A DNA stretch of 64,000 nucleotides from assembly GCA_029891345.1 (NCBI GenBank), contig CM056993.1:225193924-225257923 (forward strand). The letters run 5' to 3'. A program made the position numbers and the translations under genes. Every line of letters begins with the position of its first letter. The stretch's first letter is position 1. This DNA is from Dryococelus australis. Its lineage: Eukaryota; Arthropoda; Insecta; Phasmatodea; Phasmatidae. Shown here piece after piece: positions 15,880 to 52,214 of this stretch. The notes beneath the pieces were generated by a model that did not search any database, was not told the DNA's origin, and saw nothing but the letters and a program-made list of their open reading frames with translations.

Positions 15880-18800
15880 CTAAATTATTTTGGAAATCCC
15901 ATTTGCAATATCCGAATGCACTTTGTGTTCTGTTAGATAAAATTCATAACTTTCAAACCATTTTTGAAAACAATTCATTGACTGCTTTGTGTATGCTTTT
16001 ATGAAAGTCTGAGGCATAGCTGCATTCAAAACTACATGTATGACTTTTACATAATTCTGTAGACATTTACCATAATGAATCTGATATATTTCGGGCTGTA
16101 ACGCATTGTTTATTTATTGTATCGGTGGTAATTTGGAATACTTTTCCAAAGTCAAGTATCGATCTGCCTGACAGTCTTTGGGATCGAACAAGAGCACAGT
16201 TTTCTTACGGCCAATGTAGGAAGAACCAAGACCATCAATGTACCTTTGACGTGCAGAAGAGTTTTTGAGCCTAACCAACTTACATTTTCGTACAATTCTG
16301 CCTGATCTATCAAATAGAGGTAGTTGTGAATGGCAAACAATACATTTTCGAAATTGAGGAATTTTTCCAATTTATAACAGTTCGTTACTTTGGTCATATT
16401 TGCAAAGAAGAAGGCAAGTCCGGCGGCATAGTTGTAGATTCGTTTCACGAAACGCGATTCATTGTGCTCGTAACATTTATGAACAATAGAACAAAGTTTC
16501 AACACATCATGGTTTGGATTACTGCAAAATACACTGTAGTCAATCAGTTTTGTCAAATGTAAGTATTTTTTCTTCACTAGTGAAATAGATACGAGTATCT
16601 CAGTGTCATCGAGAACAATACCCCTTCCTTTAATTATGATCATTTCGTCGTTTATGAGTTCGACAAACCTGTTACTGTCCAATTTCAAAATATTTGTAAA
16701 TTGAAACCCATTGGTATCTGGGTCAAAGATCATTTCTCGATACTCTCGTGGAATTTTGCAAACTGCAGAGAGTTTCGTCTCGTCGTACACAATCAGTTTT
16801 TTATTTGCATCCAGATTAGAGTAGACATTGTAGGCATCTTGGCGAATGAAATATACCAACTGCATGGGCTCCTCTTCCATTAGGTTGTTTTTTGTTTCTT
16901 TGTGATCCCGAATTGCATGCAGTAGATGCAGCACGGGTGTAATTTGACATAAATATATTAAAAGTTTGTGTGCAAATAACGTCGTGCCTATGGCTATGGG
17001 AATGTTGACAAACTTGAAAAATGGAGTGCCAAAAAGCCAGTAGGTTGAGTTGACTGTAATTTTAATCGAAAGCTGCTTCGCATCCAACATGGAGTACTTT
17101 AGATTCATGTCTTGAATCCTCTCTTCAGGGACTTTTTTTTTCTCTTTTTTTTTTTGCATTTCAGTCATTAGAGATTTCATTTGCTTCTTTACAATTTTTC
17201 TACGGTCGAGTAAAGAGACTATAAAGTTTATAGTGAATGGAGTTTTGGTATGTGAGAGTAAACGAATCAGAATGGGAGTATCGCCAGCCAACAACTCTAG
17301 TTCCGTGTGATGGAAAGTATCATCTTCCCGATAGGCTGGCCGGAATACATCAGGTTAATGTATTCTGAATAATTTTTGTTTTCGTCTTCCATTACGTACA
17401 GAGCAATTACATCGTTCCTCAGCATTTCATCGAACGCGTCGTGAGATATCAGAGCATTTTCAAACACTAGATCAAAGCTTTGGCGCAGCAACAACCGATG
17501 GTCGATCTTGAAAGTCGTTTGCTGATGATGATGCTTGGGTAGAAAATATTGACGTCATATTGAATCACGTTCCAAAAAAGACCATGGTTTGTAAACACCA
17601 TGGCTTCGGGATATTCTTTTTCCATGTACTTGAAATTTGGTTTGTTGTAAATTGGTCTAACGTGCATCGCAGTCGGTCTTTCAGCGAGCGACAAACATTT
17701 CAGATCAGGCATGGCCAGTAAAACGGAATTATTGCTCTGGTATCCCGGTAGCATACCAAAGGACAGCGCATGATACAGGAACGCATTCGCGATCTGGCGA
17801 GAAATGTCACTCATCGAACTGTCTTTGAGACCGCAGTTAAAGAGATTGGCCAATTGTTTGGTAAAAATTGCCAAATTAAATTTGTTGCAAAGTCAGACCA
17901 CGGCCACCCTCTCATTGTAAGTTTAATCCTGATCCACGCGATAGAATACGATAGAGTCTGTGTTTGTTTAAACTGTAAGTTTACGCCAAACACTACCACC
18001 AATGTAATCGGTGTGGCCCATTTGCATGTTTGTGTATTGAGTGTTCACTGCATCAAACTTTTCTTTGTTGTAGGGCACATGAAAGATATTTCTCATAAAC
18101 TTATAACGAAAGTCATTGTCTGTGATAGTGACATCTAGAATATAATAAATTCGCATAAGCACAGAGTTCAAATCGATTTTCCTAAACTTTTGCTTAGATA
18201 GTTTTTGGACAGGTTCCCCAACGACAAATTCCCACTCGCCAATGCATTTTTTTTTCAAGATTGTCAACGTATCGAATATAATACAGTTGTGGTTAAAACG
18301 AATGAGCGGAGCTGTGGCTAATTTTCCAAGAGTTATAAATGCTTTTATTTCGCATTGCTTATTGAGAACCTGCAAACAAGTCAATAGGAATTTCAAATCG
18401 TATTCGATAATATTGTGGCCGACGAAATAATGTGAGTAATTTTGGTATCCCGTTAGCATTTTCAGCAAGTATCCCTGACTATACTAAAAGAGAAAATTAC
18501 TAATGAGATCCTCTTCATGTGAGAAACCTTAGATCCAAATGCATTTCGCGGTAGTCTTTCGTATTTCTTCTGCATTTCCACATCGAAATCATCGGCCATG
18601 CGGCGACATTTCAGGTACGAAATTATACTCACTTCGACAACCAGATACTCACAATAGAGCACAAACATGAGCAGTTTTTCTGGAGTGAGACACCCCCAGG
18701 GGGAAGTCTTCCAAATTATCCACACCGGTCTCGATGTCGAAGCTTACGACAAGAATGTACTGGTACAGATGAGTGTAGTCATAAGACGTGTCCAGGATCA

Positions 18801-19081
18801 GATGCTTAGACTTGGTGACTGAGTACACATCACTTGAATGAAATATATTTTCCACCATGAGGTTACCGACTCCATGTTTTGGTCTGCGAAACTTTAGTTT
18901 TGCAAGTTGATTCAGTTTGACAGATGAATTTTGCAATATCCCCTCTGAAGTTACAGTATCGATGTACAACTCCATTTGCAACATGAAATACACATCAATA
19001 GCCTGGATGGTAAAGTAGTATTTTTTTTTTATATATATAATTTTCCATGAAAAATTTGTAGACTGTGTTCAAGTTACTCAT
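15880..19081 (-). pseudogene. dnapol: Family B DNA polymerase fossil
   Basis: A minus-strand coding stretch of about 1,067 codons carries the B-family motifs in order. SFDIETG (exonuclease I) is near codon 113, GHNIIEYDLKF (exonuclease II) near 220, DVNIFYPSII (polymerase motif A) near 506, and KQLSIKITVNSTYWLFG (motif B) near 667. The C-terminal third is long and mostly open (16,152-17,294). Length matches nudivirus DNA polymerases and is far shorter than the nimavirus enzyme. It would copy the viral genome and proofread. The ATG at 19,079-19,081 is the best start. It is broken at several places. Distinct from the Polinton polymerase at 47-50.7 kb, which is protein-primed and of different sequence. 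Confidence 0.88.
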
Positions 19082-34258: not shown

Positions 34259-34990
34259 TTGAAGGGATATTTGCGATCTCAACTGTGTGAATACGAAACT
34301 CCATGCGCTATGTCCAGTCAACTAGCCGCACTTCTCATTGAGTGTCTCAAAGGGACAGAAAATTACGGCACATGGAAGTTTGCTGTTCGCGCATACCTTT
34401 GGGATTCTGTTACAGGTACGGATACTGATGCAAAACGCAACACGAAATGCCGATCCAAGTATATTTTATTAGCCGATCCGTTGAATTATGTGGACATTCA
34501 AAACATGACCACTGCCAAGGCAACTTGGGAAAATTTGCAAAAGGCATTTCAGGATGACAGTTTGATAAGAAAAATCGGTCTTCTCCGTATTCTAATAACA
34601 ACAGAATTGGACGAATATAATTCTGTGGGAGAATATGTGAACCAAATCTTGGGCACGGTGCACAAATTATCGACAGTTGGTCTACAAGTTAGTGATGAAT
34701 GGACTGGTGCTATAATCCTTGCTGTTTTACCTTGTAAACACGAGCTGATGATCACGGGTATTGAAAGTTCGGGGATCCAGGTGACTGGAGATTCTATAAA
34801 GGCGAAATTGTTATAGGATATTACATCAGTGAAATCCGAATCGCCATATGACGAGGGTGATTCGGCGTTGTACAGTTCCAGTTCCAAAAGAATGCCCCAT
34901 AGGAACAGTAACAGTTTCAGTAATGACTGCGTCTCTGGAAAAACATACCAAAAAGGACCTCGCTGCTATGAATGTTACAGGTATGGCCAC
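34259..34990 (+). pseudogene. gag: Copia gag fossil with zinc knuckle
   Basis: 185 codons open from 34,259 show the UBN2-type Copia gag: YGTWKFAVRAYLWD, then NMTTAKATWENLQKAFQDDS and VHKLSTVGLQVSDEW. A CCHC knuckle (CYECYRYGHILWNC) follows near 34,965. Gag forms the virus-like particle. Confidence 0.88.
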
Positions 34991-35039
34991 ATCTTATGGA
35001 ACTGAAACCAAGTAACGAGTAGAAACAACATAAACAAAC

Positions 35040-37510
35040 CCAGTGACAATATGAAATCAACATTTGCAGCTGCTTTTTCGATACAATTGCCTTCTCAAGT
35101 GAATGTTGACTGTCATCTTGACTCGTGTGCTTCAGTTCATATTTGCAGTGACTCAAGACGTCTGTAAAATTCTAGAAAGGCTCCTACTTTGACAATTACT
35201 GCTGCCAATAAAAATAAAATGGTATCAGATACCACTGGCAATATGGTTCTTCCTGTGAATATTTGTGGTGACACCTCTGACATTCAGGTAATTGATATTT
35301 ACCATGTACCTGATAGTTAAGTAAACCTCTTGTCAGTAGGACGAAGGGACGAATTGTTTTGAAAGGAAATACTGTTGTGTTTGACAGCACATGAGGTAGG
35401 GTTTTTACAACTCAGCAAATAAACTGATTGCTACTACAACTTTGGTTGACTGTATACTTAATTTAGACGTTCCATCTACCGATTAAGTATACTCTATGCA
35501 ATGCACTGACATCAATCTATGGCACCGACACATGGTTCACCTGAATTTTGATAGTTTGAAGAGGTTGAGTGGTATAGCCCAAGATATTAACTTTTCATCT
35601 CATGAGAAACGTTCCACCATTTGTGACACAAGCTTGCTAGGCAAAAACCACAATTTACCTTTCCCAACAAGTGATTCGACTACCAGTCATGTGTTAGAGT
35701 TATTGCATTCAGACCTGGTTCGTCCAATGGAAGTAGGATCTTTGGCTGGATCGAGATATATTTTGATTTATCTTGATGACTTCAGCCACAAATTGTTTGT
35801 TTACTTCTTAAAATCGAAGGACCAAGTCGCCGAATACTTTAATCTCTTTAAAAGATGCGTTGAGACCCAGGTTGCAGGAAAATTAAGATTTTGCATACTG
35901 AAAATGGTGGGGAATATTGTAATCATGATCTTCGTGAATTTTTCAAATCCTCAGGCATTCTGCATCAAACAAGTGGTCCTTACACACTGGCTCATAATGG
36001 TAAATCGGAGAGGCTAAATTGGGTGTTTTTCGACCGCGCGAGATGTCTACTATTACATTCAGGGCTGCCCAGTGCCTTTTGGGCCGACACTGTGTATTCT
36101 GTTGTATATCTTTTGAACAGATCGCCATGCAAATCTGTAGAGACCACCCCAGAAAAAGTGTGGTCAGGTAAACAGCTCTCTTTAAAACACCTTCGAACAT
36201 TTGGATAAGGCATTTGTACACGTTGCTGCTGAAAAAAGCTTTTCTCCAGTTGTGCGATATAGCTCATATCGATTTCTTTTGGCCCTGGCTGCAGAGCACG
36301 ACGTCGATATTGACTAGATGGATGCAGTGTCAATGTTCCTACAAGGAGACCTGGACAACGAAATTTACATGCATCAGCCTCCAGGATATGACAACAAATC
36401 GAACCAAGTATGTCGACTAAAAAGTCATTATGGACTTCAGCAAGCAAGCAGAGTCTGAAACAACAAAATGGATTCCTGTTTGAAAAGCATCGAACTTCAT
36501 CAATCAATATTTGATTAATGTATATATTACAAAATGGATGGATGGTAAAACGATGCTATTTGTGGCTGTGTGGGATGATGACTTTTCGATTTTTACTAAT
36601 GAAGGAAAGCTGAAGCTATGTGTGAAATCGCAACTTTCGAATATGTTCAAGATGACAAATCTTGGAGAAGCAAAATTCGTCCTTGGATTCCAATTGACTC
36701 GTGACTGCAAAGAAAGTAAAATTTGCCTCTATCAGGAAGCTTACATCAAGCAAGTCCTCAAGTGCTTTGATATGGATCAGTGTAAATCAGTTTCTACCCC
36801 TATGAAAGCCCATGAAAAATTTACGAAGTCTCAAGCGCCAAAATCATAAGAAGAAGTGGCTAAAATGAGAAATTTTCCGTACCAGGAAGCAATTGGCAGC
36901 CTACTGTCTGCTCCACAGGTCTCCAGACCATACATAGCTTATGCGATCAGTTGTTTGAGCAGATTTAATGGCAACCCCAGGCATGGAACACTGGGCTGCT
37001 GTCAAACATGTTATCTGATACATAAAAGGGACTTCACGGTGGAAGCTAGACTTTGATGCAAATGAGAAAGGAACAATCTCAGGATTTCGTGATGCTGATT
37101 GGGCCAGCGACTTTAATGAGCGAAGGTCCGTGATCGGCTACAAATTTTTGAAGTGTAAAGATCGTTTCTCTTAGGTGCACGAAAAGATAACCAACTATTG
37201 CCCTCTCAACAACTGAGGCTGAGTACATGCCAATATCTGCTGCAAATCAGGAAGCACTATGATTGAGAGGATTATCTCAAGAAATAATTCCATCCATTGG
37301 CAAGACTCCTACAATCATATTTGTGGAAAACTAAGGTGCTCTAAATAAATCTTACAATGACTGGGATTTATCAAGCTAAAACCAAACGCATTGATGTTAG
37401 GCACCACTTCCTCCGTGAAAAAGTTCTCAGCAAGCAAATTGATTTCAAGTACGTGTCCACAAAAGATATGTTTGCTGGTTCCTTGACAAAGGCACTCAGC
37501 TGCGACAAAT
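35040..37510 (+). pseudogene. pol: Copia pol fossil (PR-IN-RT-RH)
   Basis: Protease region around LDSCASVHIC (35,115); GAG-pre-integrase LWHRHMVHLNFDSLKRLSG (35,517); integrase core HSDLVRPMEVG, YLDDFSHK and HTENGGEYCNHDLREFFKSS (35,700-36,200); reverse transcriptase MDAVSMFLQGDLDNEIYM (36,315) and KMTNLGEAKFVLGFQL (36,650); RNase H GFRDADWASD and EYMPISAANQEA (37,085-37,260). Broken at several places. The family normally makes one polyprotein. Confidence 0.9.
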
Positions 37511-39000: not shown

Positions 39001-39006
39001 TATGTA
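39001..39006 (+). repeat. Polinton target duplication, left
   Basis: TATGTA against TGTGTA at 52,209-52,214: five of six bases match, the usual 6-bp Polinton duplication. Confidence 0.65.
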
Positions 39007-39124
39007 AGTAGTATAGAAATGCCGGTTCGAGAGCAGCCCGCGACCATCAGAAAACCAACAGCAAATTGAATGCCCAAACTATCAGGAAAACATCAGAAAA
39101 AATTACAGTTTGATTTCCTGATCC

Positions 39125-39605
39125 AAAACATTAACTGCCGGTTCGAGCGCAGCCACAAAAAAGTGACTGCAAAAGTTGCGTTAGAGTGCAACCGCAAAAA
39201 GTGACTGCAAAAATTTGCATTTGGGAGCAGTCCCCCCCCCCCCCCTACCCCTCAAAAAAACCAACAGCAAATAGAATGCACAAGCCATCACAAAACATCA
39301 GCTGCCGATTCGAGTGCAGCCGCAAAAAAAAGTGACTGCAAAAGTTGCGTTAGAGTGTAACAGCAAAAAGTGACTGCAAAAGTTGTGTTTGGGTGCAACC
39401 GCAAAAAGTGACTGCAAAAAGTTCCGTTAGAGTGTAACAGCAAAAAGTGACTGCAAAAGTTGCGTTTGGGTGCAACCCCAAAAAGTGACCGCAAAAAATT
39501 GCGTTTGAGGCATCTGCAAAAAGTGACTGCAAAAAGTTGTGTTTGAGGCATCAGCAAAAAGTTGCGTTTGGGTGCATCCACAAAAAGTGACTACAAAAAG
39601 TTGCA
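39125..39605 (+). repeat. Tandem array inside left TIR
   Basis: About a dozen degenerate units of roughly 35-40 bases built on GCAAAAAGTGACTGCAAAAG TTGCGTT, with a C run at 39,231-39,244. The short frames 39,288-39,618 follow the repeat and are not genes. Confidence 0.85.
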
Positions 39606-39663
39606 AACAGCGACTCAAGAAAATTGAATACGAAAAAAAATAAAATATTGTCCATAATAAACA

Positions 39664-39849
39664 ATGGCTCAGTTGCTAAATGTATTGAATGGAGTCCAAC
39701 AATTTAAGAAACTTTCCGAACTTTCAATTGGACAGACCTATCCCATAGACCATGCTGAAATATCTGATACACGGTATGGACACAAAGAGGCAATTTTAAA
39801 GAAACCTTGCCAGACATATATCTTCAGAATTTCAGCGAAAAAGTTTTAG
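39664..39849 (+). pseudogene. TIR-embedded Polinton ORF, left copy
   Basis: MAQLLNVLNGVQQFKKLSEL... runs inward from inside the terminal repeat; the same frame is present in the right repeat. From memory, small proteins with this opening and a TRYG segment occur near Polinton ends and look like a compact beta-fold (possibly OB-like) domain; function unknown. The start box TAATAAACAATG precedes it. Confidence 0.65.
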
Positions 39850-39942
39850 ATGGTGTTAATCGTGGTGGTATAAATTTTGCATATGATGGAATGGAGGATT
39901 GTGGCGCTAAACAAAGGCATTCTATTCGGTTTTTTAAAGAGT

Positions 39943-40020
39943 TGATGATCGTTGTATTAGACATCAGTTGATTTTTATATGTGCTCATATCTCTATAAGG
40001 TTCTAATGATTGGATAATCA
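39943..40020 (-). repeat. Duplicate of the PolB start region
   Basis: The minus strand reads MSTYKNQLMSNTTIINS, close to the polymerase N-terminus MSANKNQPMSNMMTTMA at 50,656. It is a detached direct copy of about 60 bases lying against the left TIR. Confidence 0.7.
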
Positions 40021-40223
40021 TTAAAACACAATTGTCGCTCTGACTTCGGCAATGTGCTACAACATAGTCTAATTAAAAATTTGGATACACATCTCCAAAT
40101 TCGACGCATTAAAGTAGCCGAAACATTGAGTTCTTTCATTACATTTACTATAGAAATATTATTCATCTTTATAACACAAAACTTTAATATATAGAATATG
40201 ACTACTTCCAACCGAAAAAATAT

Positions 40224-40938
40224 CTATGGCTTCATCTCTAATACCACAGTTCTTTCAGACAAATCAAAATTAATTAACTTTCCTTTTTCATCCTTAATTT
40301 CAACTATTAATTCATTAACTTGATTTGTTTGCACTGGGAAAAATAATGGATAAGCTGGTAGATCGTGTCGCCAAATCCAAACGTTGTTTTTGATTTAAAA
40401 GTGGCAATTATGCTAGTTTATATATGGTTATTTTCATCATGTTTTAATATCATGCCATTTACTATATTACAGTATATATTTATTGTTTCAAATGGAGCAA
40501 ATTTGGAATTGCATCGCCATCATGATCCACATTTGCTTTCAGAGTTTTATTTTCTACAAAACCCAAAAGTTTTCCTATTGAACCCCGTTTTCCAAAGTGT
40601 AATTTAAGCGTACATTTTACTTTTACTCTGTTTGTTATTTTATCCAGCTCGAAAGATATATCATTTTCTTTCCCACCCATTGAATCTACACTAACTGAAA
40701 AAATTGCTTTTATAGTTTTTTCAAGATCTTTTATGCTATATTGACCAACTGGAATATCAATTGCCGTATCATTATGGCCCACAAAATATAGCTTATTTCT
40801 CCCAGAGATAATGTTATGCATTAGATAAGTAGTATTGAACTGAACTAAAGCCAATGAGTGTCCCTCTATCTCTAAAGGGTAGTGTAGTCTCTTCTTCAAC
40901 ACTGAATTGTTATCTGTTAGTTTGAATACTTTACTCAT
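40224..40938 (-). pseudogene. Polinton penton-like minor capsid protein
   Basis: MSKVFKLTDNNSVLKKRLHY..., with LALVQFNTTYLMHNIISGRN, IPVGQYSIKDLEKTI and GSIGKLLGFVENKT as in the single-jelly-roll minor capsid (penton) proteins of Polintons and adintoviruses. It would occupy the vertices of the particle. The C-terminus LPAYPLFFPVQTNQVNELIV...LEMKP ends at 40,224. About 238 codons, which is the family's usual length. It is divergent from the ATPase with 31 bases between the two start codons; the two TAATAAATG boxes face each other. Confidence 0.85.
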
Positions 40939-40969
40939 TTATTACATTATTAAAAAAATATATTAATAA

Positions 40970-41692
40970 ATGAGCAAGAAACATGTAGACTGGGATATTA
41001 AAATAAGAATACCAGACAAGGCTGTATCAGCAAAACGTCATGGAGAATTATTACCTAATAATATTAGGTGTTTGATTATGAGCCCTAGTAACTGTGGGAA
41101 AACTGCACTTATGATAGATAATTTTATATATGCTCAGGGATTGTTGGACTTTGGCACTCTCTATGTATGTTCAAAAAGTCTGGACCAACCAAAATATATC
41201 AATTTAAAGAAATATATAGATGTAGTTTCAAAATTATTTAATGAACCAATAGCATACTTCTTTCCATCCAATGAAGAAATAATTGATGTAAATGAATGTC
41301 AAAAAGAGTCTGTAGTTGTTTTCGATGATATCATACTTGAAAATCAAGATATGGTAAGGGATTACTTTACTTGTGGTAGACATAAAGATATTGATTGCTT
41401 ATATTTAGCTCAGACATACTCAAAAGTACCTAAGCAGCTTATAAGAGACAATAACAGTTTTCTTTGCATATTCAGACAAGACGATACAAATCTTAAACAT
41501 ATTCATAGTGTTTTTGTTGATGGTGATATGTCATTTGAGAAATTTAGGGAGACATGTTCAAAATGCTGGAATAATGAATATGATTTTGTTACAATAGATA
41601 TGACTCATAAGTTAAATAATGGCAAGTACTGCAATAAAATTAAAGACTTTTTATATTCTTCGATTGTAAGTTTTGTTTTTAATGGAAACTAA
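40970..41692 (+). CDS. Polinton FtsK/HerA-type packaging ATPase
   Basis: 240 codons, open throughout. Walker A is MSPSNCGKTAL (codons about 37-47), Walker B is VVVFDDII (about 115-122), then CGRHKDIDCLYLAQTYSKVP carries the sensor-type region. This is the A32-like ATPase that pumps DNA into the capsid in Polintons, virophages and poxviruses. It is the only long plus-strand gene of the element. The start is set by the TTAATAAATG box. It looks whole. Confidence 0.95.
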   Translation: MSKKHVDWDIKIRIPDKAVSAKRHGELLPNNIRCLIMSPSNCGKTALMIDNFIYAQGLLDFGTLYVCSKSLDQPKYINLKKYIDVVSKLFNEPIAYFFPSNEEIIDVNECQKESVVVFDDIILENQDMVRDYFTCGRHKDIDCLYLAQTYSKVPKQLIRDNNSFLCIFRQDDTNLKHIHSVFVDGDMSFEKFRETCSKCWNNEYDFVTIDMTHKLNNGKYCNKIKDFLYSSIVSFVFNGN

Positions 41693-41707
41693 CATAATCT
41701 CATCTTT

Positions 41708-42284
41708 TTAAACGTATTCATATACCATAACTATTTCAATAAACACAATTGTACCTTCGGGTACATTGTGGGCTTTTGGTATTTTAAAATATATCATATC
41801 ATCATGGAATCCTTTAAAAGTTTTATGCATGTCAATTTTATTCGGTTCATGATAACAGGTGATAACACTTTCATATTTTTCTGGTTTTATTATTATTTCA
41901 ACTATAGTTCCATCTCTCAAAAAAAATTCAATTCAGTTATTGAAGTAAAATATTTTTTTCTTTTGAATTATATTTCTCAACTAAATGAATAATGTTAATT
42001 CTGTTTTTCTGATAGTACTCTAAATTGATTGCGTCCATCGGTGCAATGGAATTTCCCACATGTCTTAGCCTTTTTGGTTCAAAATCTACATTATTATCTA
42101 CTTTCAAGTAAGTAAGATAGGCTTTATCCAATGATCTTTTGTTTCTTGTCAGTGTGGTTATAAAGTCGTTGAAATGTGTGTTGGAAACAAAATCATTAGG
42201 GCTCATCTTCTCATCATTGTTCATGCATTCTTTAATTTGATCTTCAAACCAAGAGCTTATTAATGTATTTCAGCATATATCCAT
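41708..42284 (-). pseudogene. Unassigned Polinton structural-type ORF
   Basis: About 190 codons in two pieces (41,937-42,224 and 41,708-41,920). The start codon at 42,282-42,284 lies in a TAATAAACAATG box. The C-terminal part (GTIVEIIIKPEKYESVITCYH... VPEGTIVFIEIVMVYEYV) is beta-rich and could be a capsid-associated protein. It is far too short for the double-jelly-roll major capsid protein. Confidence 0.55.
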
Positions 42285-42422
42285 TGTTTATTAATAGTGA
42301 AATAATTTTTGGAAATTCAAAATTATGCGAAAAGAGATTTAGCACAATTACACAAAAATTACCACAAGTTACTTGATTTAAATTTTGAATTCTATCATTG
42401 TTATAAAAATGTTACTTCGGAA

Positions 42423-43067
42423 TTATGCTATTAATTGTCGCGGTGGATTTTCGCCAAATGAATCAAAATAATATTTATTTGCTTTTTTCCAATAGCATAC
42501 AGAATGTGTACCAGAGTTTGTCGAAACATCTAGATTAACAATCCCACATTCATTTTCGAGTGGTGTGTTAAGCAGCTCATCGATCATAAATACACCCCGA
42601 AAATTTTTTATGTTAATTTTTTTAACCATTTGATCAATATCAAAGTTACTGAGTGGAGTTATTTTTTTTTTAACATTCTTACGCCACTTAACTTTTTTCA
42701 ATCCCTTGCTGTATTCCTTCATAGCTAAATTATGTCTGCGTTGTTCTTCCATTTCTTGGTTTTTCTTCTTCGCATTAATTGCTGATGTAGCGATAGATGA
42801 TGCACCGCCAGCTAACGCTCCTAGAGCTCCCAATACTGCGAAAATTAAGAATAAAAATCCGCCCTTGTGAACTGTCAAACCATTACCAGTTTTCATTTCT
42901 TTGGACATTTTCTTAAGCTGTGGAACTGAAATTGTGATAGCCATCCCTTTGTCCTCCTTTCGTTTCTTGTTTTTACGATCCAGCTGGTCTTTCATTAGGA
43001 AAGAATCAATATTCAAACCCTTCAACTCATCGTTAGGAACTTGAAATACAATGTTTTATACTTTCAT
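42423..43067 (-). pseudogene. Adenovirus-type cysteine protease
   Basis: The C-terminal half has the Polinton maturation protease (adenain, C5 family) signature: LSNFDIDQMVKKINIKNF, GVFMIDELL, ECGIVNLD, then GTHSVCYWK and YYFDSFGENPP. The N-terminal half is a basic, glycine/alanine hydrophobic segment (FLFLIFAVLGALGALAGG) like those of small minor virion proteins fused to the protease in many animal Polintons. The TAATAAATG box at 43,065-43,073 suggests the start lies slightly upstream of the long frame at 43,025. Confidence 0.88.
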
Positions 43068-43087
43068 TTATTATAACAAATATTTTA

Positions 43088-44518
43088 TCATTTTATTTCA
43101 ATTCCCCAGCCAAGCTTACGTTTAATATGCATCACAGATCCAGTAACACCAGCCCACAATCTCTCATTGAGATCAGCATCTGAACTTAACAATCTTTTGA
43201 ATGCTTTCTTTTCTAGTTCTTTGTCAGCTACATGTCTTTCAGATAGATCTTTATGATGATAATAAGCTATATCGTGTTCCATTGCAGCCACATATAGTGG
43301 ATTAATGGGTTTATTCTCTCTTTTAGTCTGGTACCCGGACCTAAGTACTGATAACTGGGTGCGTGCAACTCAGAAGGCAGCACATTTATTATGTCATTGA
43401 GTAACCCTTTTCCGTGACGCTCCGACTTCCAAAAAGTATGTGGTATTGTGTTTAACATTCGTATTAAATATGGTATACCTTTTGAATTATTCACAACAAA
43501 GTCACTAAACTTGCTGTTGAGCATATTCATTATTCCAAATTTTTCATTGTAATAGTTATCATTTCGAGCATTCTCTTCGCCATAAATAACGAGAATCCGA
43601 TCAATAAGCATCCTAACATCATCCATCCATATGTATTCTTTCGGGTAGTGTGTATATTTCTTTTTACCTTTCCCCTTTTTAGGCGAGGGTCGTTTCTTTT
43701 TATTCGAATAGTAAATATGTTTAACAATAATTTTCCATTTATTCCCTTTACTCGATTTTGGCATTCCCAAGTTTGGATCATTGTTTTGAAAAACTGCATT
43801 CGCCTCTGCTAGGATACGACTATAGTGTTTATAGTCGGTTGCAGTGTAGTCACTTTCTGTTACTTTCTTACTAGTTAGTAATTTCATCAAACCATCGGTT
43901 CCAGTGTATGTTCGACCTTTTACAGTAAATATGTCTTTGATGAATGTTACTTCGGTATCACCAATATACAATCTACCTTTATCAGCCTTTAGCCCAAAAA
44001 TGTCGTCTTTGCAGTCTATTAAAAAATCGGCCACTTTCTTATCAATAAATGTTGTTTTGTAGTTAGTTAACTGCCGGATATCAAATTTCAAACCCCCCAA
44101 TGCTTCGTCATAGCATTCATCACCAAAGCGTTCATCGTCATAGCATTCATCGTCATCGTCAATGCATTTAACGCCATTGTTATAGCGTTCATTTCTATAG
44201 CGTTCATCGCCATAGCATTCATCGCCATAGCGTTCATCGGTGCCTGTTTTACCAAACATTTTTCTATTGGTGTCTGTGGGTAGTCTAAATTCTTAACAGC
44301 AATTGGAACAAGTTCTTTTATTAAGTTCTTATTCTCATTTGTTACATGTCCAATTTCTTGCCCAAATCTTCTATCGCATCTATAAATGGTTGAACATGTT
44401 TTTTATTTTTATCATATTCATCTTGGCGAAATTTTCTAAAAGTTTCAAACTTTTCAATTAGGTGTTTTCTTCTCTCTATATTCTTCTCTATATTGTTTAC
44501 AATGTTTTGTTGCCTCAT
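43088..44518 (-). pseudogene. Polinton PLA2-domain virion protein
   Basis: About 477 codons from the ATG at 44,516-44,518. Order: a charged coiled-coil-like N-terminus (NNIEKNIERRKHLIEKFETF); an acidic repeat of DERYGDECYGDE type (44,100-44,250); a conserved middle domain (LKADKGRLYIGDTEVTF, YTGTDGLMKLLTSKK); a basic linker (KKKRPSPKKGKGKKK); and a C-terminal parvovirus-type phospholipase A2 segment, YQYLGPGTRL then EHDIAYYHH with the calcium loop and catalytic HD. In parvoviruses this domain breaches the endosome on entry; the same role is likely here. Confidence 0.87.
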
Positions 44519-44663
44519 TTATTATATAAAATGATCAATGATAACTTAAATGTATACTGTCTCAAATGTATGAAAAATACACTAAGTTCATACAAACTTA
44601 CCAATAATAACAAAGTAAGAATTAAATGTGTTTGGAGATGCCGTGTTACCAATAACTCGCTAT

Positions 44664-45077
44664 TCACTGGTGGGAGTACAAAAAACGATATTGTAAATGA
44701 AATTCAGAAACCAATGCGAAAAAACGTATGGACGGCAGCACATCTTTTGTCGCCCATTTCTTGAACCGTTTTGCTTCAGCTTTTTTTGACGATAAAATCA
44801 GTGAATACAAGCCCGATTCGTTGATAAACACTGCGTACGGTTGCATATTCAAAGAAGGGCCTTCCGGGTAGCCCCATTGTGTCGTCAATGTTTCCAATGG
44901 AATACGGTCGTCTTTGTCGATGTTGACCCAGATTGCTTGTTGTGGATTGTTGTACTCGAGTATAAGCACAACGTCTTTAGCCTTGAACCACGGGTTGCCT
45001 TCTTTGTCGAGTATTACGTACACCTCTTTACGGTCGTAAACGAGCTTGTTGTTTACAATGTCGATGAGCGATTGCAT
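44664..45077 (-). CDS. bro: Bro-N domain protein (cargo)
   Basis: 137 codons. The Bro-N fold is clear: VILDKEGNPWFKAKDVVLIL, NIDKDDRIPLETL, VFINESGLYSLILSSKKAEA and FKKWATKDVLPSIR. Bro-N proteins bind DNA and are spread among baculoviruses, nudiviruses, ascoviruses, phages and other elements. There is no TAATAAATG box before the ATG and the base composition is GC-richer than neighbours, both marking it as acquired cargo. A second Bro domain is absent. Confidence 0.88.
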   Translation of the reverse strand: MQSLIDIVNNKLVYDRKEVYVILDKEGNPWFKAKDVVLILEYNNPQQAIWVNIDKDDRIPLETLTTQWGYPEGPSLNMQPYAVFINESGLYSLILSSKKAEAKRFKKWATKDVLPSIRFFALVSEFHLQYRFLYSHQ

Positions 45078-45334
45078 TTTGGCAGAAATGCACAGGCTTA
45101 CATGTGGTGATACGCGAACAATTTCGAGACGACATGTCTCGAAACACTACTCGATGTCTACCACAAACGATTTTACGCGTACGACATCAGCGAAGCCATG
45201 TTCATTGATAAATACGGTATGTGGAAGTGCACTCGACAAGGGTCGCGATTCGCTACTCTCTATATCTGCATATGCTGTTCTCTAATCGCTTCTCGCGGAT
45301 CCCATTAAAAGCATAATAATATTTAAGTGAAAAT

Positions 45335-46732
45335 TTAATGTATGGAGATCGTCTCCATTTGTATCACTAGTTTTTTGAACTGATTAAGGATATCTGAGTA
45401 TGAGGATGGTAATGTAGAACACTTTACATTGAATATTGGAAGATCAAATCTGTCAACTCTGACAAACATGTTTATAAACTCATTGAATGCATAGCAGGTT
45501 GTGTTCTTGAAGAAGTATAATAATCCATTGGTGTATATAAAAGCAGAATATAACCCAATTGGTAAGCCTGGAAATTTCCTTGCAATTAAACCGAAAGATT
45601 TTGATCTGAATAAGCACTCGTCCAGTTCCATAAAATACATTTAATTGTAAAATACAAAAGTACGACCAGAGTAGGTGTTTACATCTGCTTTTATTTTGGA
45701 ATTTTGAGGTATACCCATATCATAAATAACCTTTGGATAACAAGACACGAGTTGCAGACTAGGATATTCAAATATAAATACATTTGACTCGATAAACATT
45801 ACTATTTCCCCTGATGGTCTCTGATAAATCGATGTAAAGCTTTCAAAATTAGCAGGTAAGAAAAACAGCCAGTTAGTGATAAGTTCTGGTTTACTAACTA
45901 TTTTATCTATTATGTCATATGTCCAAACATATTTTTTATAAAAAATATACATCACTTGATTGACTACTAAAAATGTGTTGATGTTTTTTAAGTTACACAA
46001 ATCTATTTATTTTGTAGGGAATAATATGTTTGGTTTAGGAGGGGATAACGAATGCACAGATCTTTTAGGTTTACCATATAGACTCTGTATTGCCAAAATA
46101 TCATCAGTTTGTAAAGTTAGCCGATCTGAGACATAAATTGGGTACATAACAGTCTCGTAAACATTCGAATGATGTATTCCTAATGCAAATCCTATTTCAT
46201 GCAATAGCACAACGAAAAGATTTATTTTTCCTTGAGATTTGTTGTCATGTTTAAGATACCAATCTTCTTCAGCATCAATGTGAATTTCAACTCGTGAGTT
46301 ATCTGCTTTCGGGAAAAAAGCATGAGCTAGCACTCCTCCTCTCCCATCAAATTTGCTATTACATAAATTCCGAGACTTTTGAAATGTATGGATACTACAT
46401 TTGTTTGATATTATTATGTGTGGGTTTTGAGTATCATGTTTAAACATAATGTCAGTATGTTTGGCCCATGTATGAAACACTTCTTGAGTTAGTTGTAGTA
46501 TGTCACGATTGGCCAACGCATAATGCCATTTTATTACTTTCGTTGTCCATTTGGTAATAGATGTAGAAAAGCCAAATATATCATCTTGTACCCCACATCT
46601 AGGAGTTTTGATTAGTGCCAGTGTTTCTTTACTTATTTCGCCACTAATTGTTATATAGTGATACTCTTGAAAAAGCCGGAGAGCATTTGAAACTATTGAT
46701 GAATTTGCGTGTGTAATATCTTTGTCAGGCAT
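45335..46732 (-). pseudogene. mmp: Matrix metalloproteinase with hemopexin repeats (cargo)
   Basis: About 465 codons. The N-terminal 240 are an MMP: a prodomain ending in the cysteine switch PRCGVQD (about codon 50), a catalytic domain with FDGRGGVLAHAFFP (calcium/zinc-binding segment), a zinc-site motif around LLHEIG...LGIHHS (about 175-190) and a Met-turn-like VMYPIY. Then come hemopexin repeats over 45,335-46,000 (KADVNTYSGRTFVFYN, FPGLPIGLYSAFIYTNG). MMPs cut extracellular matrix; betabaculoviruses carry one that breaks down basement membrane. I know of no Polinton with one. Little broken: one or two interruptions. No TAATAAATG box at its start, so probably a captured host gene. Confidence 0.9.
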
Positions 46733-46734
46733 TT

Positions 46735-47005
46735 TTTAGTACCCAAAATCATTTAAATATTTTACAGTGGAAAGTGCTTGATTTTCGCCTCTGCTCCGGG
46801 ATACCAAAATAAAAAAAGACAATCGTAAAGGTAATAATTGACTGATATATCATATTTCATTCTATCACTCGTTTTCAATTTTGTAGTGTCCCCATGGTAA
46901 TGTATTAATACCATCTTTAAGAATAAATCTTTTATCATCTTTGGGACTTAATGCTTTTTTCCTCATCTCAAACTTATAGAGTTTATGGTTCTTACATCTA
47001 ATAAG
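46735..47005. other. Intergenic spacer between MMP and PolB
   Basis: Some of this reads as an extension of the polymerase C-terminus (LYKFEMRKKALSPKDDKRFI-like on the minus strand near 46,910-47,000), so the polymerase may extend to about 46,870. Confidence 0.5.
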
Positions 47006-50000
47006 ATTCATACTTTTGTATAACACTTTTTTTTACCAAACAAACGCTTTTTGTAGCTGCCAAAACTAATCTCATTTATGACTACAGCATTTTTCACACC
47101 CTTTGCTCTTTTCTTTACACTACCCTCCACATTCATTTCATACATTTTCGATTTCAAACCAATAAATTCTTCCATTATTTTTCCATTACATTCATCTTCC
47201 ATTTTGCCAATAATCTTTTTGTTAACTAATGGTATGCCATGTGGATTATCCTTTCTATAGTCAGAAGTATCAAAATGGTTGACAATTTCTTTCATGTCAC
47301 TGTAGAAGTCTGGTGTTTTTATATAATAGATGTACGAATCAGTATCTTGGTAGCACAGTTCAATATATTCCCCATACTTTGGCTTCATTATATTATAGCG
47401 AAAATCATACATTAAGACTTTCGATAGATCGAGTATACTCATCCCAACATAAATGGGTTTGTTAAAGCACAGATTTGTTTTATTCATATGAACTGCAACC
47501 AAAGAGCTAGTAAATATAGTCCTATCTTTTAAGTTTGGTTTAGCCACTAGTTTATCCATTTGCTTAGAACTTGTGCACAACCGTATATCCACTCCGTTTC
47601 TAATATTCTCCATTGTTTTTTCCAAAAATGGAATTGTTCATTAGCTTGTAAAAATCTTTTTCAAAGTCATTTGTAGACTTTGTTCGCATATTTGTGTTTA
47701 GATCAATATAGGACTTGAGCCAATCTGATTTATCAAACTCCAGAACTCTATGGATCTTTTTCAACTTAATTCCGAGAGATAGATACTGCCTAAGATTTAC
47801 ATAGCGTAATACATATTTCTCTTTATCATTCCGAATAGTCAAGAGTTTGGGGTTATTTGAACCTTCCCGGAATTTTTTTCTTTGGTGCCAATGGCAGATC
47901 TTTGTGGAGATCGTGTAGTTCATGTGGGTATTCCAAATCAACTTCCAATATATACGCTTTGATAGCATCATCTTCTATTTCTATTACATCTATATTTGTA
48001 TTTGCCCACTTAAACCCACCATAGGGCAAATACTGATTCATAGCCCATCCATATAAGTTATTGGCATCCAGATATGCAAGACAAAAGATTTCCTTTGTGC
48101 TGTCATAAGCAATCATGTATTTATTATTTGCTTTAGCATATCGCTTACAACATTGTGAAATTCCACCACGAACACCTTTTTCTATCACCAAAATCATGTC
48201 GTAATCTGTTAATAACTCTAGTTCTAGTTTAGTGTGTTTGAACATAGCATCCCACGCTAACCCTGGGGCTGTGAAATACCATGCTGGATCTAACTTATAT
48301 GTTTTGAGACACAGATCTCTAAAATTTTCCATTATATCAGACAATATAAACACATCAGATTTGTTATACAGTTCTGTATACTCTCTTAGAGATTTTATGT
48401 TGAATTTTTCCCACACCTTTCTCGCAAATTCGTAATCTTTGTCTGTAATGCCGCATTTATTGAGTCTGTTGTAAAATGCATCTTTGGATGGAAGCGATGT
48501 CTCACAAAATTTTTCAGCACTGTCCATGTAGTCATATGGGTAGACACCTTTTCTTGTAACAAAGTCAAGAAGTTCATTGGAAAAATGTGTACATGTTTCT
48601 CGGAATTGGCTTCTGGAAAGGTTGCTAGAGAGTTTATCGATACTACTAGCCATAAATTTAAATGAGTCAATAATTCTAAGATTCACACTTCCACATACAT
48701 GCTTCATAAAAGAAATATATTTTTATTCATTGTTGGGAATTAGATCAATCTTATATTCATCAATGCCAAGATCTCTTATGAATAAATGTGTGTCAGCCAG
48801 ATAGATTGTGTATAAACACTGGGACAAAACATGGATTTCTATACAATAAGTTACAATGTCTACGTGCAGCTCCCCTAAATTTCCCTGTAAGATGATCATG
48901 ATCTCTCACAGAATCACCATTCAAAGGCTTTTCACATATATGGCAATGGGTAGCTGTATAATAAACAATTTGTTCTTTCTGAGTTAGTGGAAGCATTGGT
49001 TTTTCATTTCTGTATATATCACCAATAGACTGTGCTTCTTCCATTAGCATTTTAACGAACACAGTAGATGCATCAGGTCCTTCATAAGTTACTGGTGGTT
49101 TATAGTACCCATGTTCGTATTTTACATAGCAACAGAAGCTAATAGGCTTGTGTTTTTGGTATGGTTTCGTGTAACCTTCATCGGCGTTTGGTTGGCAAGT
49201 TTAGATTTTAGTCAACAAACATTCAAAATCAGCATATATCACAAATGGAACTCTCAAAGAATGATTTTGGTTTTGAAATCTTAATATGTAATTTTTTCCT
49301 TTAGATGGTAGTTCAACTCTAAAACCATCGTGATCTCGACAGTCTTGTTCGTGATCTTTTAGCTTATTTACAGAGTAGAAATGTTGCAAACATCTATCAC
49401 GTATAAATATTTTGTGACTATTTTTCGTTCCTTGTGATGCGACAAGTCTCGAAAGACTTTTTACCCAACAGTAGTGATCGTTCTTTTCGTCTTTGATATA
49501 GAGTAGGTTCATGTGCTTGTCCATATTATTTTTTGTTATTTTTAATGGACAGATTATACATTTCTTACCGCCATCTTCTTCTCCCAATGCGTATATATTT
49601 ATAGAAATTCCACTTCTCTTCTCAAAGGTTGGTATGCTATCCAATTTTATTGGAAATTCCAAACCCTTAAGTGCATCATCAAACTCATGTTCCTAAGCTT
49701 CGTATTTATTCACTCTTTGAGGGTCTTTTTTTACTTGATGCAATGCAGTTAGAACAGACCACAAAAAACATTTTTGATCAGCGTTCTTAATATTAATTAC
49801 CGCCTGCTTAGTTTTGATTTTTTCTGGGAGATCAACATAAGAACTGCCCTTGAATGGTACATATTTATTTATTCGCACTTCTAGTTTAAATATTCTGTTG
49901 AGTGCCCACTGAGATCCCTTTGCTTCGAATGTCTCCATCTCAGCTATGATTTTCGATATACTGTTGGTATAATATTCTTCCAGATTAGTCGATTTCAGTA

Positions 50001-50656
50001 TAATTTCGTTCTTTGTTTTAAAAGAGCTTTCTACATATTCAATATTTTCACGAATTCCCCTTTTGTACTCAGTGAAGAATTTCATGTTCACTTTGAATGA
50101 TTTTGAATGCTTACTAATTAGCACTGTGACAGTTTCTTTTACATCATTTAGGAAATGCTTTGGGTCTTTGTATGCTTTTACATTCTTTACAGCATAAGAC
50201 TTGATCCTACTTTGAAATGCTGTTTCGATTTCTTCTACACTGAATATGGGTGTGTACTTATGAATATTACTCCTCAAGTGACTTCTTATGAGAGATGGTT
50301 TGTAATAGTGGCTACATGTTTCATATTTCACTTGTCTCTCTCGTGGGAACTTCTGTTTTTATATTATTAAGTGTTGTGGAACTTTAAACATTTCCTATGC
50401 ATTTGTTGGTTCATGTGATTGGTGTAAGACCTTTGTGCAATCTACTTTTAAGATGGCTTCTTATGAGAGATGGTTTGTAAAAGTGTTTACAAGTGTCACA
50501 CTTGACATATTTCTCTTTAGATTTCTTCTTCTTTCTTTCCACAAAGATGCCATTCTCAAACTTATATTCTTTCCAAACATTACCAGTTGCGTTAACCTTT
50601 TTCATTGCCATGGTCGTCATCATATTAGACATCGGTTGATTTTTATTTGCGCTCAT
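46870..50656 (-). pseudogene. polB: Polinton protein-primed DNA polymerase B
   Basis: About 1,250 codons, starting MSANKNQPMSN at a TAATAAATG box (50,654-50,662). Order: Cys/His finger CDTCKHFYKPSLIRSH and a second such finger; conserved N-terminal region; exonuclease start VPFVIYADFECLL (about 49,220); zinc-type CHICEKPLNGDSVRDHDH; HNLSGYDTHLFI; polymerase motif A YLDANNLYGWAMNQY (about 48,060); motif [13 protein letters not shown] (about 47,620); motif C CYQDTDSYIYY (about 47,350). This enzyme replicates linear Polinton DNA using a terminal protein as primer. It is broken at about five to seven places, each piece long. Confidence 0.95.
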
Positions 50657-50688
50657 TTATTATGGACAATATTTTATTTTTTACGTAT

Positions 50689-51260
50689 TCAAATTTTCTT
50701 GAGCTGCTGTATTGTCAACCGTTCTTGCGCAATGCTCAGCGATTCACTCGACATGAGAGAGTATACATCATCGATATGGTATGCATAATGCTTGTTTGCA
50801 TCATAGCATCCGCGACCAGGGAGAAGCGACGAAACATAAGTTGCATGGCAGGTATCGAAATGAGCAAAGGGATCATCCGTCGTGCATATGCCATCTCGCA
50901 GACACCAACTCTCGTCTACACAAAAATCACTCGCTATGCCGTGCCCATTTTTTATCTCTTCGAGAAGAAGCTGGGAACTGCCTCCCATACACTTTCTTTG
51001 CGGGTACATTGTGAGAGAGTCGGTGTACGGCACGTTTCGCGACCACGAGACAAGTCCCTTGACCACAAACGCATCGCTGATGGCGGTCGCGCATGATACT
51101 GCCCAACAGCAGCCGCATTTATATTGGTTGCGCACACGCGAGATGAGTTTTTTCTGGCACCGTTCGTCAGAATCGTCGCTCTATAAAGAAACGGCCCAGT
51201 TGAACTCTGCTGGCACGAGCGTGTATTTTGGGGAGGTAAAAAGAAGAGGCAGTCAAACAT
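50689..51260 (-). pseudogene. Papain-family cathepsin-like protease (cargo)
   Basis: The active-site segment reads VRNQYKCGCCWAVSCATAIS, matching RNQ..CG.CWA of peptidase C1A. LTMYPQRKCMGGSSQLLLEE follows as the GC.GG-type loop. About 149 codons are open from the active site to the end; a less clear stretch upstream (PKYTLVPAEFNWAV) extends it to about 51,260. The CGCCWA form resembles cathepsins of large DNA viruses rather than lysosomal ones (from memory). It is GC-rich relative to the Polinton, lacks the start box and lies between PolB and the right TIR, so it looks acquired. Some breaks are present and the C-terminal His/Asn part of the fold is not identified. Confidence 0.78.
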
Positions 51261-51508
51261 TACATTTCGCGTGTCTGACTTTGTCGGTTCGTGTTGGTAG
51301 AATCACACAGTTTGGGAAGACAAATTGCGCGTGCTGGGATTAAAGTGTTTAATAGCTCGCGAGCCGTTAAACATGCCATAATGGCAGTACCTGCAACATG
51401 TTGATGCTTTAATAAAACGAAATAGAATGCCTTTGTTTAATGCCACAATCCTCCATTCCATCATATGCAAAATTTATACCACCATGATTAACACCATCTA
51501 AAACATTT

Positions 51509-51694
51509 TCACTGAAAATCTGAAGATATGTCTGACAAGGTTACTTTAAAATTCCCGGAAGTAATTACCACTTTGTGTCCATACCGTGTATCAGATATTT
51601 CAGCATGGTCTATGGGATAGGTCTGTCCAATTGAAAGTTCGGAAAGTTTCTTAAATTGTTGGACTCCATTCAATACATTTAGCAACTGATCCAT
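51509..51694 (-). pseudogene. TIR-embedded Polinton ORF, right copy
   Basis: MDQLLNVLNGVQQFKKLSEL... with THAEISDTRYGHKVV-like continuation; near-identical to the left copy over at least 125 bases. Start box TAATAAACAATG on the minus strand at 51,692-51,703. Confidence 0.65.
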
Positions 51695-51754
51695 TGTTTA
51701 TTATGGACAATATTTTATTTATTTATTTTTTGCATATTCAATTTTCTTGAGTCG

Positions 51755-52065
51755 CTCTTTGCAACTTTTTGTGGATGCACCCAAATGCAACTTTTTGCAG
51801 TCACTTTTTGCGGTTGCACCCAAATGCAACTTTTGCGGTCACTTTTTGCTGTTGCACTCTAATGCAACTTTTGCAATCACTTTTTTTGTGGCTGCACTCG
51901 AATCGGCAGCTGATGTTTTGTGATGGCTTGTGCATTCAATTTGTTGTTGGTTTTCTGATGATGGGGGGGGGGGGGGGGGGGGGCTGCTCCCAATCGCAAC
52001 TTTTTGCAGTCACTTTTTGCGGTTGCACTCTTAACACAACTTTTGCTGTCCCTTTTATGCGGCTG
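51755..52065 (-). repeat. Tandem array inside right TIR
   Basis: About seven units of the same 35-40 base repeat as in the left TIR, with a G run of about 19 at 51,964-51,982. Fewer copies than on the left. Confidence 0.85.
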
Positions 52066-52208
52066 TGCTCGAACCGGCAGTTAATGTTTTGGATCAGGAA
52101 ATCAAACTGTAATTTTTTCTGATGATTTCCTGATGGTTTGGGCATTCAATTTGCTGTTGGTTTTCTGATGGTCGCGGGCTGCTCTCGAACCGGCATTTCT
52201 ATACTACT

Positions 52209-52214
52209 TGTGTA
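52209..52214 (+). repeat. Polinton target duplication, right
   Basis: TGTGTA; partner of TATGTA at 39,001-39,006. Confidence 0.65.

Follow-up and report, generated by a model that had tools for sequence, protein, structure and literature searches.

Adintoviridae, which with Polinton/Maverick elements are the closest known counterparts of the element reported here, are defined by an integrase with a C-terminal chromodomain and a type B DNA polymerase (PolB) with an N-terminal OTU-like domain, and the adintovirus genes named in the accessible text of that account differ from the cargo that we describe (PMC11071296). Nematode Mavericks carry a wosp protease and a krma kinase as cargo, reported in the available part of a meeting report as nematode gene families (PMC10680173), and Bro-N has been described from certain polintons as well as from an element of a dinoflagellate (PMC12721341, accessible text). 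Here we analysed a stretch of 64,000 nucleotides from the genome of the stick insect Dryococelus australis (contig CM056993.1; hereafter, the window) and identified a Polinton/Maverick copy at positions 39007-52208, in which terminal inverted repeats (TIRs) enclose a matrix metalloproteinase (MMP) gene with a hemopexin tail, a gene for a Bro-N protein and a fragment of a cathepsin gene. The element is a decayed member of a Polinton (adintovirus-like) family of D. australis, and among its genes conserved function is best supported for the MMP gene.

The identity of the element follows from its ends and its core genes. The TIRs, of about 0.8-0.9 kb, are identical in 740 of 959 aligned columns with gaps counted, and their best blocks span 178 nt (96% identity) and 177 nt (94% identity). 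Judged by eye, the termini lie at 39007 (AGTAGTATAG...) and 52208 and are flanked by a putative 6-bp target-site duplication in which 5 of the 6 bases agree, read at both ends of this single locus. Long TIRs of the Polinton/Maverick kind are accompanied by PolB, matched above the Pfam cut-off in two pieces (PF03175, DNA_pol_B_2; 2.9e-06 and 6.5e-07) and presumably protein-primed, as in Polintons at large. At the level of the family, a retrovirus-type integrase (PF00665, rve; 2.1e-11) and a double-jelly-roll major capsid protein (PF21738; 4.1e-27) were matched in a younger copy (L126); the window copy holds an 18% remnant of the integrase and lacks the capsid gene. An A32-like ATPase match in the window (Pox_A32; E=2.9e-4, 20.8 bits, cut-off 22.8) and a C-terminal chromodomain match in the integrase of L126 (PF00385; 1.2e-4, 22.3 bits, cut-off 25.1) are both weak. 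An adenain-type maturation protease had no Pfam match in the window or in the pieces of young copies, and its likeness was seen by eye only.

The window copy is dead. PolB is in pieces, stop codons interrupt the PolB and MMP-hemopexin frames, the cathepsin gene is halved, and deletion has removed the capsid gene together with most of the integrase. The second zinc-binding histidine of the MMP, which is kept in 19 of 19 other copies with the site aligned, is gone. The initial annotation had placed MMP-hemopexin, Bro-N and cathepsin genes inside one Polinton, and the TIRs, the target-site duplication and the Pfam domains bear this out, although the copy that holds these domains is degenerate.

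We searched one D. australis assembly (3,415,067,245 bases in 646 contigs) for further copies. A DNA search with the MMP gene gave 334 first-look candidates, the best 40 of which all matched at 93-100%. The window-type set that we read consists of the window and 20 further copies, which were chosen through the MMP search, so that the presence of the gene in 21 of 21 copies reflects selection of the sample. The capsid gene was present in 19 of the 21, Bro-N in 16 (counted as present from 41% cover upwards), the small subunit of ribonucleotide reductase (R2) in 5 and cathepsin in 3; 12 copies had neither cathepsin nor R2, and one (L099) was not scorable for these two genes. The stretch that holds hemopexin, MMP and PolB (45276-50704) recurs, with gaps, in the 20 other copies on 12 contigs, except that PolB is missing from L099 and represented in L107 by its 5′ part alone. 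The cathepsin gene was read at 12 loci (L109-L120, the window being L109), and at all 12 its place is between PolB and the TIR. The possibility that the three genes occur in no other copy is thus excluded. Neither later insertion of host genes nor an artefact of assembly with no relation to the element found support: the MMP-PolB arrangement stands at 20 other loci and the PolB-cathepsin-TIR arrangement at 11, and four hemopexin matches (on C11, C6 and two on C3; among the best 150 of 368 candidates), which are probably exons of host MMPs, lie elsewhere in the genome. We consider such an origin very improbable.

A younger subfamily emerged from the capsid protein search. Among the best 100 of 22055 candidates, 38 were full copies at 98-100% identity (7 with one stop), one was a partial copy at 98% and 61 matched at 76-81%. 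Hemopexin DNA (best 40 of 366 candidates) matched at 97-100% in 32 cases, at 94% in one and at 88-89% in seven. Pieces of young copies hold a 463-amino-acid phospholipase A2-like protein (2.9e-12), a 369-amino-acid integrase, a 418-amino-acid double-jelly-roll capsid protein and a hemopexin domain, and the MMP gene is common to the window-type and younger subfamilies. A hemopexin match lies within 5 kb of 29 of 39 young capsid genes; for the other 10 there was none among the matches listed, an absence that rests on the best 40 of 366 hemopexin candidates, the best 150 of 2839 MMP candidates and a shorter interval. The distance from capsid gene to PolB is 4863-5549 in 26 of the 29 hemopexin-bearing young copies (those with a listed PolB), and 3322-3343 in 8 of the ten copies without hemopexin, 3854 in one and not measurable in one. 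The difference, approximately 1.6 kb, roughly equals the length of the MMP gene. Because the older subfamily also has the gene, its loss from some young copies would be the simpler reading.

Proteins of the M10A family are recognized by an HExxHxxGxxH zinc site, a Met-turn and a cysteine switch. In the stick-insect family, the zinc site is intact in 16 of the 19 copies in which it could be aligned, the remaining three having stops in the site; the PRCG cysteine switch is kept in 15 of 20 copies and the methionine of the Met-turn in 17 of 19. Together with the hemopexin domain (PF00045, one stretch; 6.5e-9 in a younger copy, 0.016 and below the cut-off in the window), these motifs place the protein in M10A at the level of the family; the window copy itself lacks the second histidine. 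Among solved structures, the best chains for the MMP are interstitial collagenase, stromelysin-1, stromelysin-2 and matrilysin; those matched by the hemopexin profile are macrophage metalloelastase (MMP-12; 3.3e-7) and collagenase-3 (MMP-13; 5.3e-7). An AlphaFold2 model of the hemopexin part was uninformative (mean predicted local distance difference test score of 38). Open MMP frames of 524 amino acids without stops were found in 12 copies by protein search (best 150 of 2839 candidates). A hydrophobic start upstream of the MMP, seen by eye, suggests that the enzyme would be secreted.

The ratio of nonsynonymous to synonymous substitution rates (dN/dS) between young and window-type copies was 0.23 for hemopexin (42 pairs), 0.28 for the capsid gene (38 pairs), 0.21 for the integrase (6 pairs) and 0.21 for the N-terminal part of PolB (40 pairs); with CpG codons removed, the values were 0.26, 0.33, 0.19 and 0.26, respectively. 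Within the window type, the ratios were 0.64 for hemopexin, 0.71 for capsid, 0.51 for the MMP catalytic domain and 0.55 for the N-terminal part of PolB (0.79, 0.97, 0.67 and 0.60 without CpG codons). The hemopexin part was therefore held under purifying selection akin to that on the capsid, integrase and polymerase genes, and, because ratios are low between subfamilies and higher within the window type, we infer that these genes were constrained before insertion and decayed afterwards. Selection is also supported for R2 (0.25; 0.23 without CpG codons; 10 pairs, 5 copies) and Bro-N (0.26; 0.25 without CpG codons; 64 pairs, 12 copies). For cathepsin, it is weak or undecided because the ratio is 0.46, rising to 0.58 without CpG codons (91 pairs, 14 copies, L127 left out). 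An earlier, lower cathepsin ratio (0.30; 0.13 in the most diverged fifth), which had included L127 and CpG codons, was discarded.

These values bear on whether the cargo consists of passive passengers, captured fragments that hitch-hike on a transposon. Many copies lack cargo, both among the window type (12 of 21 with neither cathepsin nor R2) and among the young capsid genes (10 of 39 with no nearby hemopexin among the matches listed), truncated cathepsin copies multiplied, and the cathepsin ratio without CpG codons would suit such a history. However, ratios of 0.22-0.26 without CpG codons for hemopexin, R2 and Bro-N, and the 524-amino-acid open MMP frames of young copies, argue the other way; passive carriage is disfavoured for MMP, R2 and Bro-N, and is improbable as a general account.

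Our preferred reading is that the copy in the window is a decayed member of a Polinton family with an MMP in its gene set, and that these elements are, now or recently, proviruses of a virus that a secreted MMP helps to spread; we give this a probability of roughly 0.6. Such a virus would pass between cells or hosts, and the enzyme would open the matrix or basement membrane for it, a role that has been proposed for the MMPs of large insect viruses. The uniform absence of the gene from some young, well-copied elements fits a need for the MMP in spread rather than in copying within the genome. The initial annotation had suggested virus-like behaviour, with genes swapped with large viruses or the host, and the purifying selection on the hemopexin part fits a virus-like life. 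Several points weigh against this reading. The 10 young capsid copies with no nearby hemopexin still multiplied, so the gene was not needed by every copy; both the viral life and the enzymatic action are predictions from genome sequence; secretion was judged by eye, and one host genome was examined; the dN/dS pairs are not independent and carry no claim of significance, and between subfamilies they cover only the hemopexin part of the MMP. The enzyme may instead serve within the cell or in the processing of virions. Along these lines, the MMP might be real and selected and yet act within the viral cycle, when virions mature, enter a cell or leave it, and not on tissue barriers. A capsid gene and a phospholipase A2-like protein belong to the element itself, and selection on hemopexin resembles that on the capsid gene, whereas the propeptide with its cysteine switch, the hemopexin tail and the hydrophobic start fit a secreted enzyme, and the element already includes a fragment that, by eye, resembles a maturation protease. 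We regard this alternative as unlikely, if less so than passive carriage.

A broader form of the provirus reading, which we advance tentatively and at somewhat less than even odds, is that of a recently active stick-insect virus lineage with a dedicated secreted MMP for spread through tissues or between hosts, which drops and regains accessory genes from copy to copy and has a pool of such genes (cathepsin, phage-like R2, Bro and MSV199) in common with large insect DNA viruses, remnants of one of which seemingly lie in the window. Bro, MSV199, cathepsin and MMP genes, including the metalloproteinase and cathepsin of baculoviruses, are typical of large insect viruses.

Slots neighbouring the conserved core, and the ends of the element, carry variable cargo: Bro-N, cathepsin, R2 and MSV199. 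The initial annotation had treated MMP, Bro-N and cathepsin as a set; all three lie inside the element, but they are not a fixed package, as 12 of the 21 copies have neither cathepsin nor R2 and Bro-N was not found in the capsid-hemopexin interval of the two young copies read. The three-gene set of the window is in part an accident of the cargo that this copy kept. Cathepsin holds a recurrent position, but is truncated in most copies tested and has a weak selection signal. Its DNA search gave 171 candidates, of which the best 40 were scored. The window copy keeps only the cysteine half, without the complete Cys-His-Asn catalytic domain of papain-family cathepsins, and the half with His and Asn was found in 3 of 15 copies (L092, L116 and L119).

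R2 (233 DNA candidates, best 40 scored) was identified by Ribonuc_red_sm (8.2e-24) and by a phage R2 family (3.3e-28). It matched 229 phage records, the closest phage relative being 43% identical, and twelve PDB chains at E up to 0.001, several of which are bacterial and none of which is known to be human or mouse. 'Phage-like' thus describes these matches, made with phage records and solved chains, rather than a tree. One copy (L127) carries cathepsin and R2 together, apparently head to head. We dropped the idea that the two are alternative cassettes swapped in one slot, as L127 has both and loss from a pair fits equally. A candidate gene, 'R2n', was rejected as the 3′ end of R2 and its flank read out of frame.

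The stretch from PolB to the TIR has a GC content of 44-48% in 7 of 8 copies measured (the eighth, L094, is without cargo and has 35%) compared with 29-35% in the 2-kb bins from 40001 to 50000, which suggests a foreign origin of this cargo stretch. Divergence between copies, with CpG sites excluded, is 0.188 in Bro-N against 0.060 and 0.076 in its flanks, approximately 2.5-3 times its neighbours, and could reflect either exchange among the copies or the retention or sampling of different paralogues, between which these values do not distinguish. For R2 there is no clear excess (0.077 against 0.071 and 0.075); the values for cathepsin are 0.085 against 0.055 and 0.057. More than one Bro-N domain seems to be present in L093, which has two stretches, and in L095, where cover reaches 203%; DUF3627 is matched in an open reading frame (ORF) that neighbours the Bro-N of L098. 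An MSV199 domain gene is present in young elements (1.9e-31; L123, 771-1112), with 8 matches among 58 candidates, all scored, and five of full length. Two full-length genes (G000:C1:217772453 and 217786866) lie 14.4 kb apart in opposite orientation with one MMP between them, so MSV199 seems to stand near both ends of that element. In viral_contigs, we found no confirmed relative of the MMP, capsid protein, cathepsin or R2; 158 confirmed Bro-N relatives were found there (best 80 kept).

Table 1. Features of the Polinton copy, in window coordinates (ORF, open reading frame).
Feature	Coordinates	Strand	Basis or remark
Left target-site duplication, TATGTA	39001-39006		By eye
Left TIR	39007-39939	+	Repeat comparison; repeat units at inner end
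152-amino-acid ORF behind TAATAAATGA start	40480-40938	-	ORF list; no Pfam match
Packaging ATPase-like ORF	40970-41692	+	Pox_A32, 2.9e-4, below cut-off
ORF ending in capsid-maturation (adenain-type) protease-like fragment	42423-43025	-	By eye; no such Pfam match
Broken protein; younger relative of 463 amino acids with phospholipase A2-like domain	43267-44259	-	PF08398, 2.9e-12 in L126
Integrase remnant (18%), adjoining the deletion that took the capsid gene	44528-44725	+	Comparison with other copies
Bro-N domain ORF	44664-45077	-	Bro-N, 6.1e-26
Hemopexin part of MMP, in-frame stops	45335-46000	-	Hemopexin at 45335-45640, weak
MMP propeptide and catalytic domain (M10)	46007-46732	-	Peptidase_M10, 1.8e-32
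PolB region, several broken pieces	47008-50656	-	DNA_pol_B_2
Endonuclease_7-like piece inside PolB region	48793-49062	-	2.3e-7
Cathepsin (Peptidase_C1), N-terminal half	50689-51135	-	8.7e-07
Flank partly common with R2 3′ flank (matched 51214-51321); marks R2 site of other copies	51208-51400		Copy comparison
Right TIR	51407-52208	-	Repeat comparison
Right target-site duplication, TGTGTA	52209-52214		By eye

A small broken gene (MAQLLNVLNG...; by eye) lies at the inner end of the left TIR. The phospholipase A2-like domain of the 463-amino-acid relative is presumably of the kind found in parvovirus capsid proteins. Several ORFs start at an AT-rich stretch ending in AATAAATGA (40938, 40970, 43067, 44518 and 50656 in the window; 1132, 2541 and 3675 in L126), which may be a common promoter, although elsewhere in the element ATAAATG occurs with no long ORF behind it. 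Elsewhere in the window, three stretches on the reverse strand (136-1306, 2018-2638 and 16152-18993) look like remnants of a large DNA virus. They include ORFs with RING (0.0012, below the cut-off) and BIR (1.6e-6) matches and a DNA_pol_B piece (1.5e-4, below the cut-off). ORFs that neighbour this piece have PolB-like motifs, and one ORF contains NADIDGD, a motif like that of RNA polymerases; these motifs were seen by eye and have no Pfam match. Fragments of a Copia-type retrotransposon (34259-36849, forward strand; by eye from ORFs) lie immediately to the left of the element.

The initial annotation knew of no Polinton with this gene set. In the open-licence literature (titles and beginnings of abstracts of the best-ranked matches), we found none with an MMP or cathepsin, but polintons with Bro-N have been described before (PMC12721341, accessible text), and the main text of the D. 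australis genome paper mentions neither Polinton nor Maverick (PMC10268593). The element is thus of a known kind, with a gene set not found in print within that literature. Our results suggest that an MMP-bearing element with cargo of the kinds known from large insect viruses and bacteriophages behaves, or behaved, as a gene-trading virus, and they bear on whether animal Polintons still act as infectious viruses. An enzyme of a tissue-remodelling type that is under selection, yet missing from some multiplying copies, offers a testable sign of selection outside the genome, and the variable cargo provides a record in which gene exchange between insect DNA viruses, small and large, can be counted.

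Large insect DNA viruses (baculo-, irido- and entomopoxviruses), the genomes of which are much larger, have members with genes for MMP, cathepsin, Bro, MSV199 or R2; the likeness drawn here is one of gene kinds as generally known rather than of gene order. The nematode Mavericks described in the available part of their report (PMC10680173) are similarly virus-like transposons with a protease as cargo, but belong to another phylum, and their protease families are likened to ours by description only. According to the accessible text on the dinoflagellate element (PMC12721341), its Bro-N is fused to VRR-NUC, whereas the stick-insect element has a separate Bro-N ORF. The closest likeness is to Polinton/Maverick elements and Adintoviridae, with which the family has in common long TIRs, PolB, an rve integrase and a double-jelly-roll capsid protein; the near-perfect 6-bp target-site duplication at one locus, the weak chromodomain match at the C terminus of the integrase and the A32-like ATPase match below the cut-off may be further points of likeness. 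Unlike these elements, the family has a conserved MMP-hemopexin gene together with cathepsin, R2, Bro-N and MSV199 cargo.

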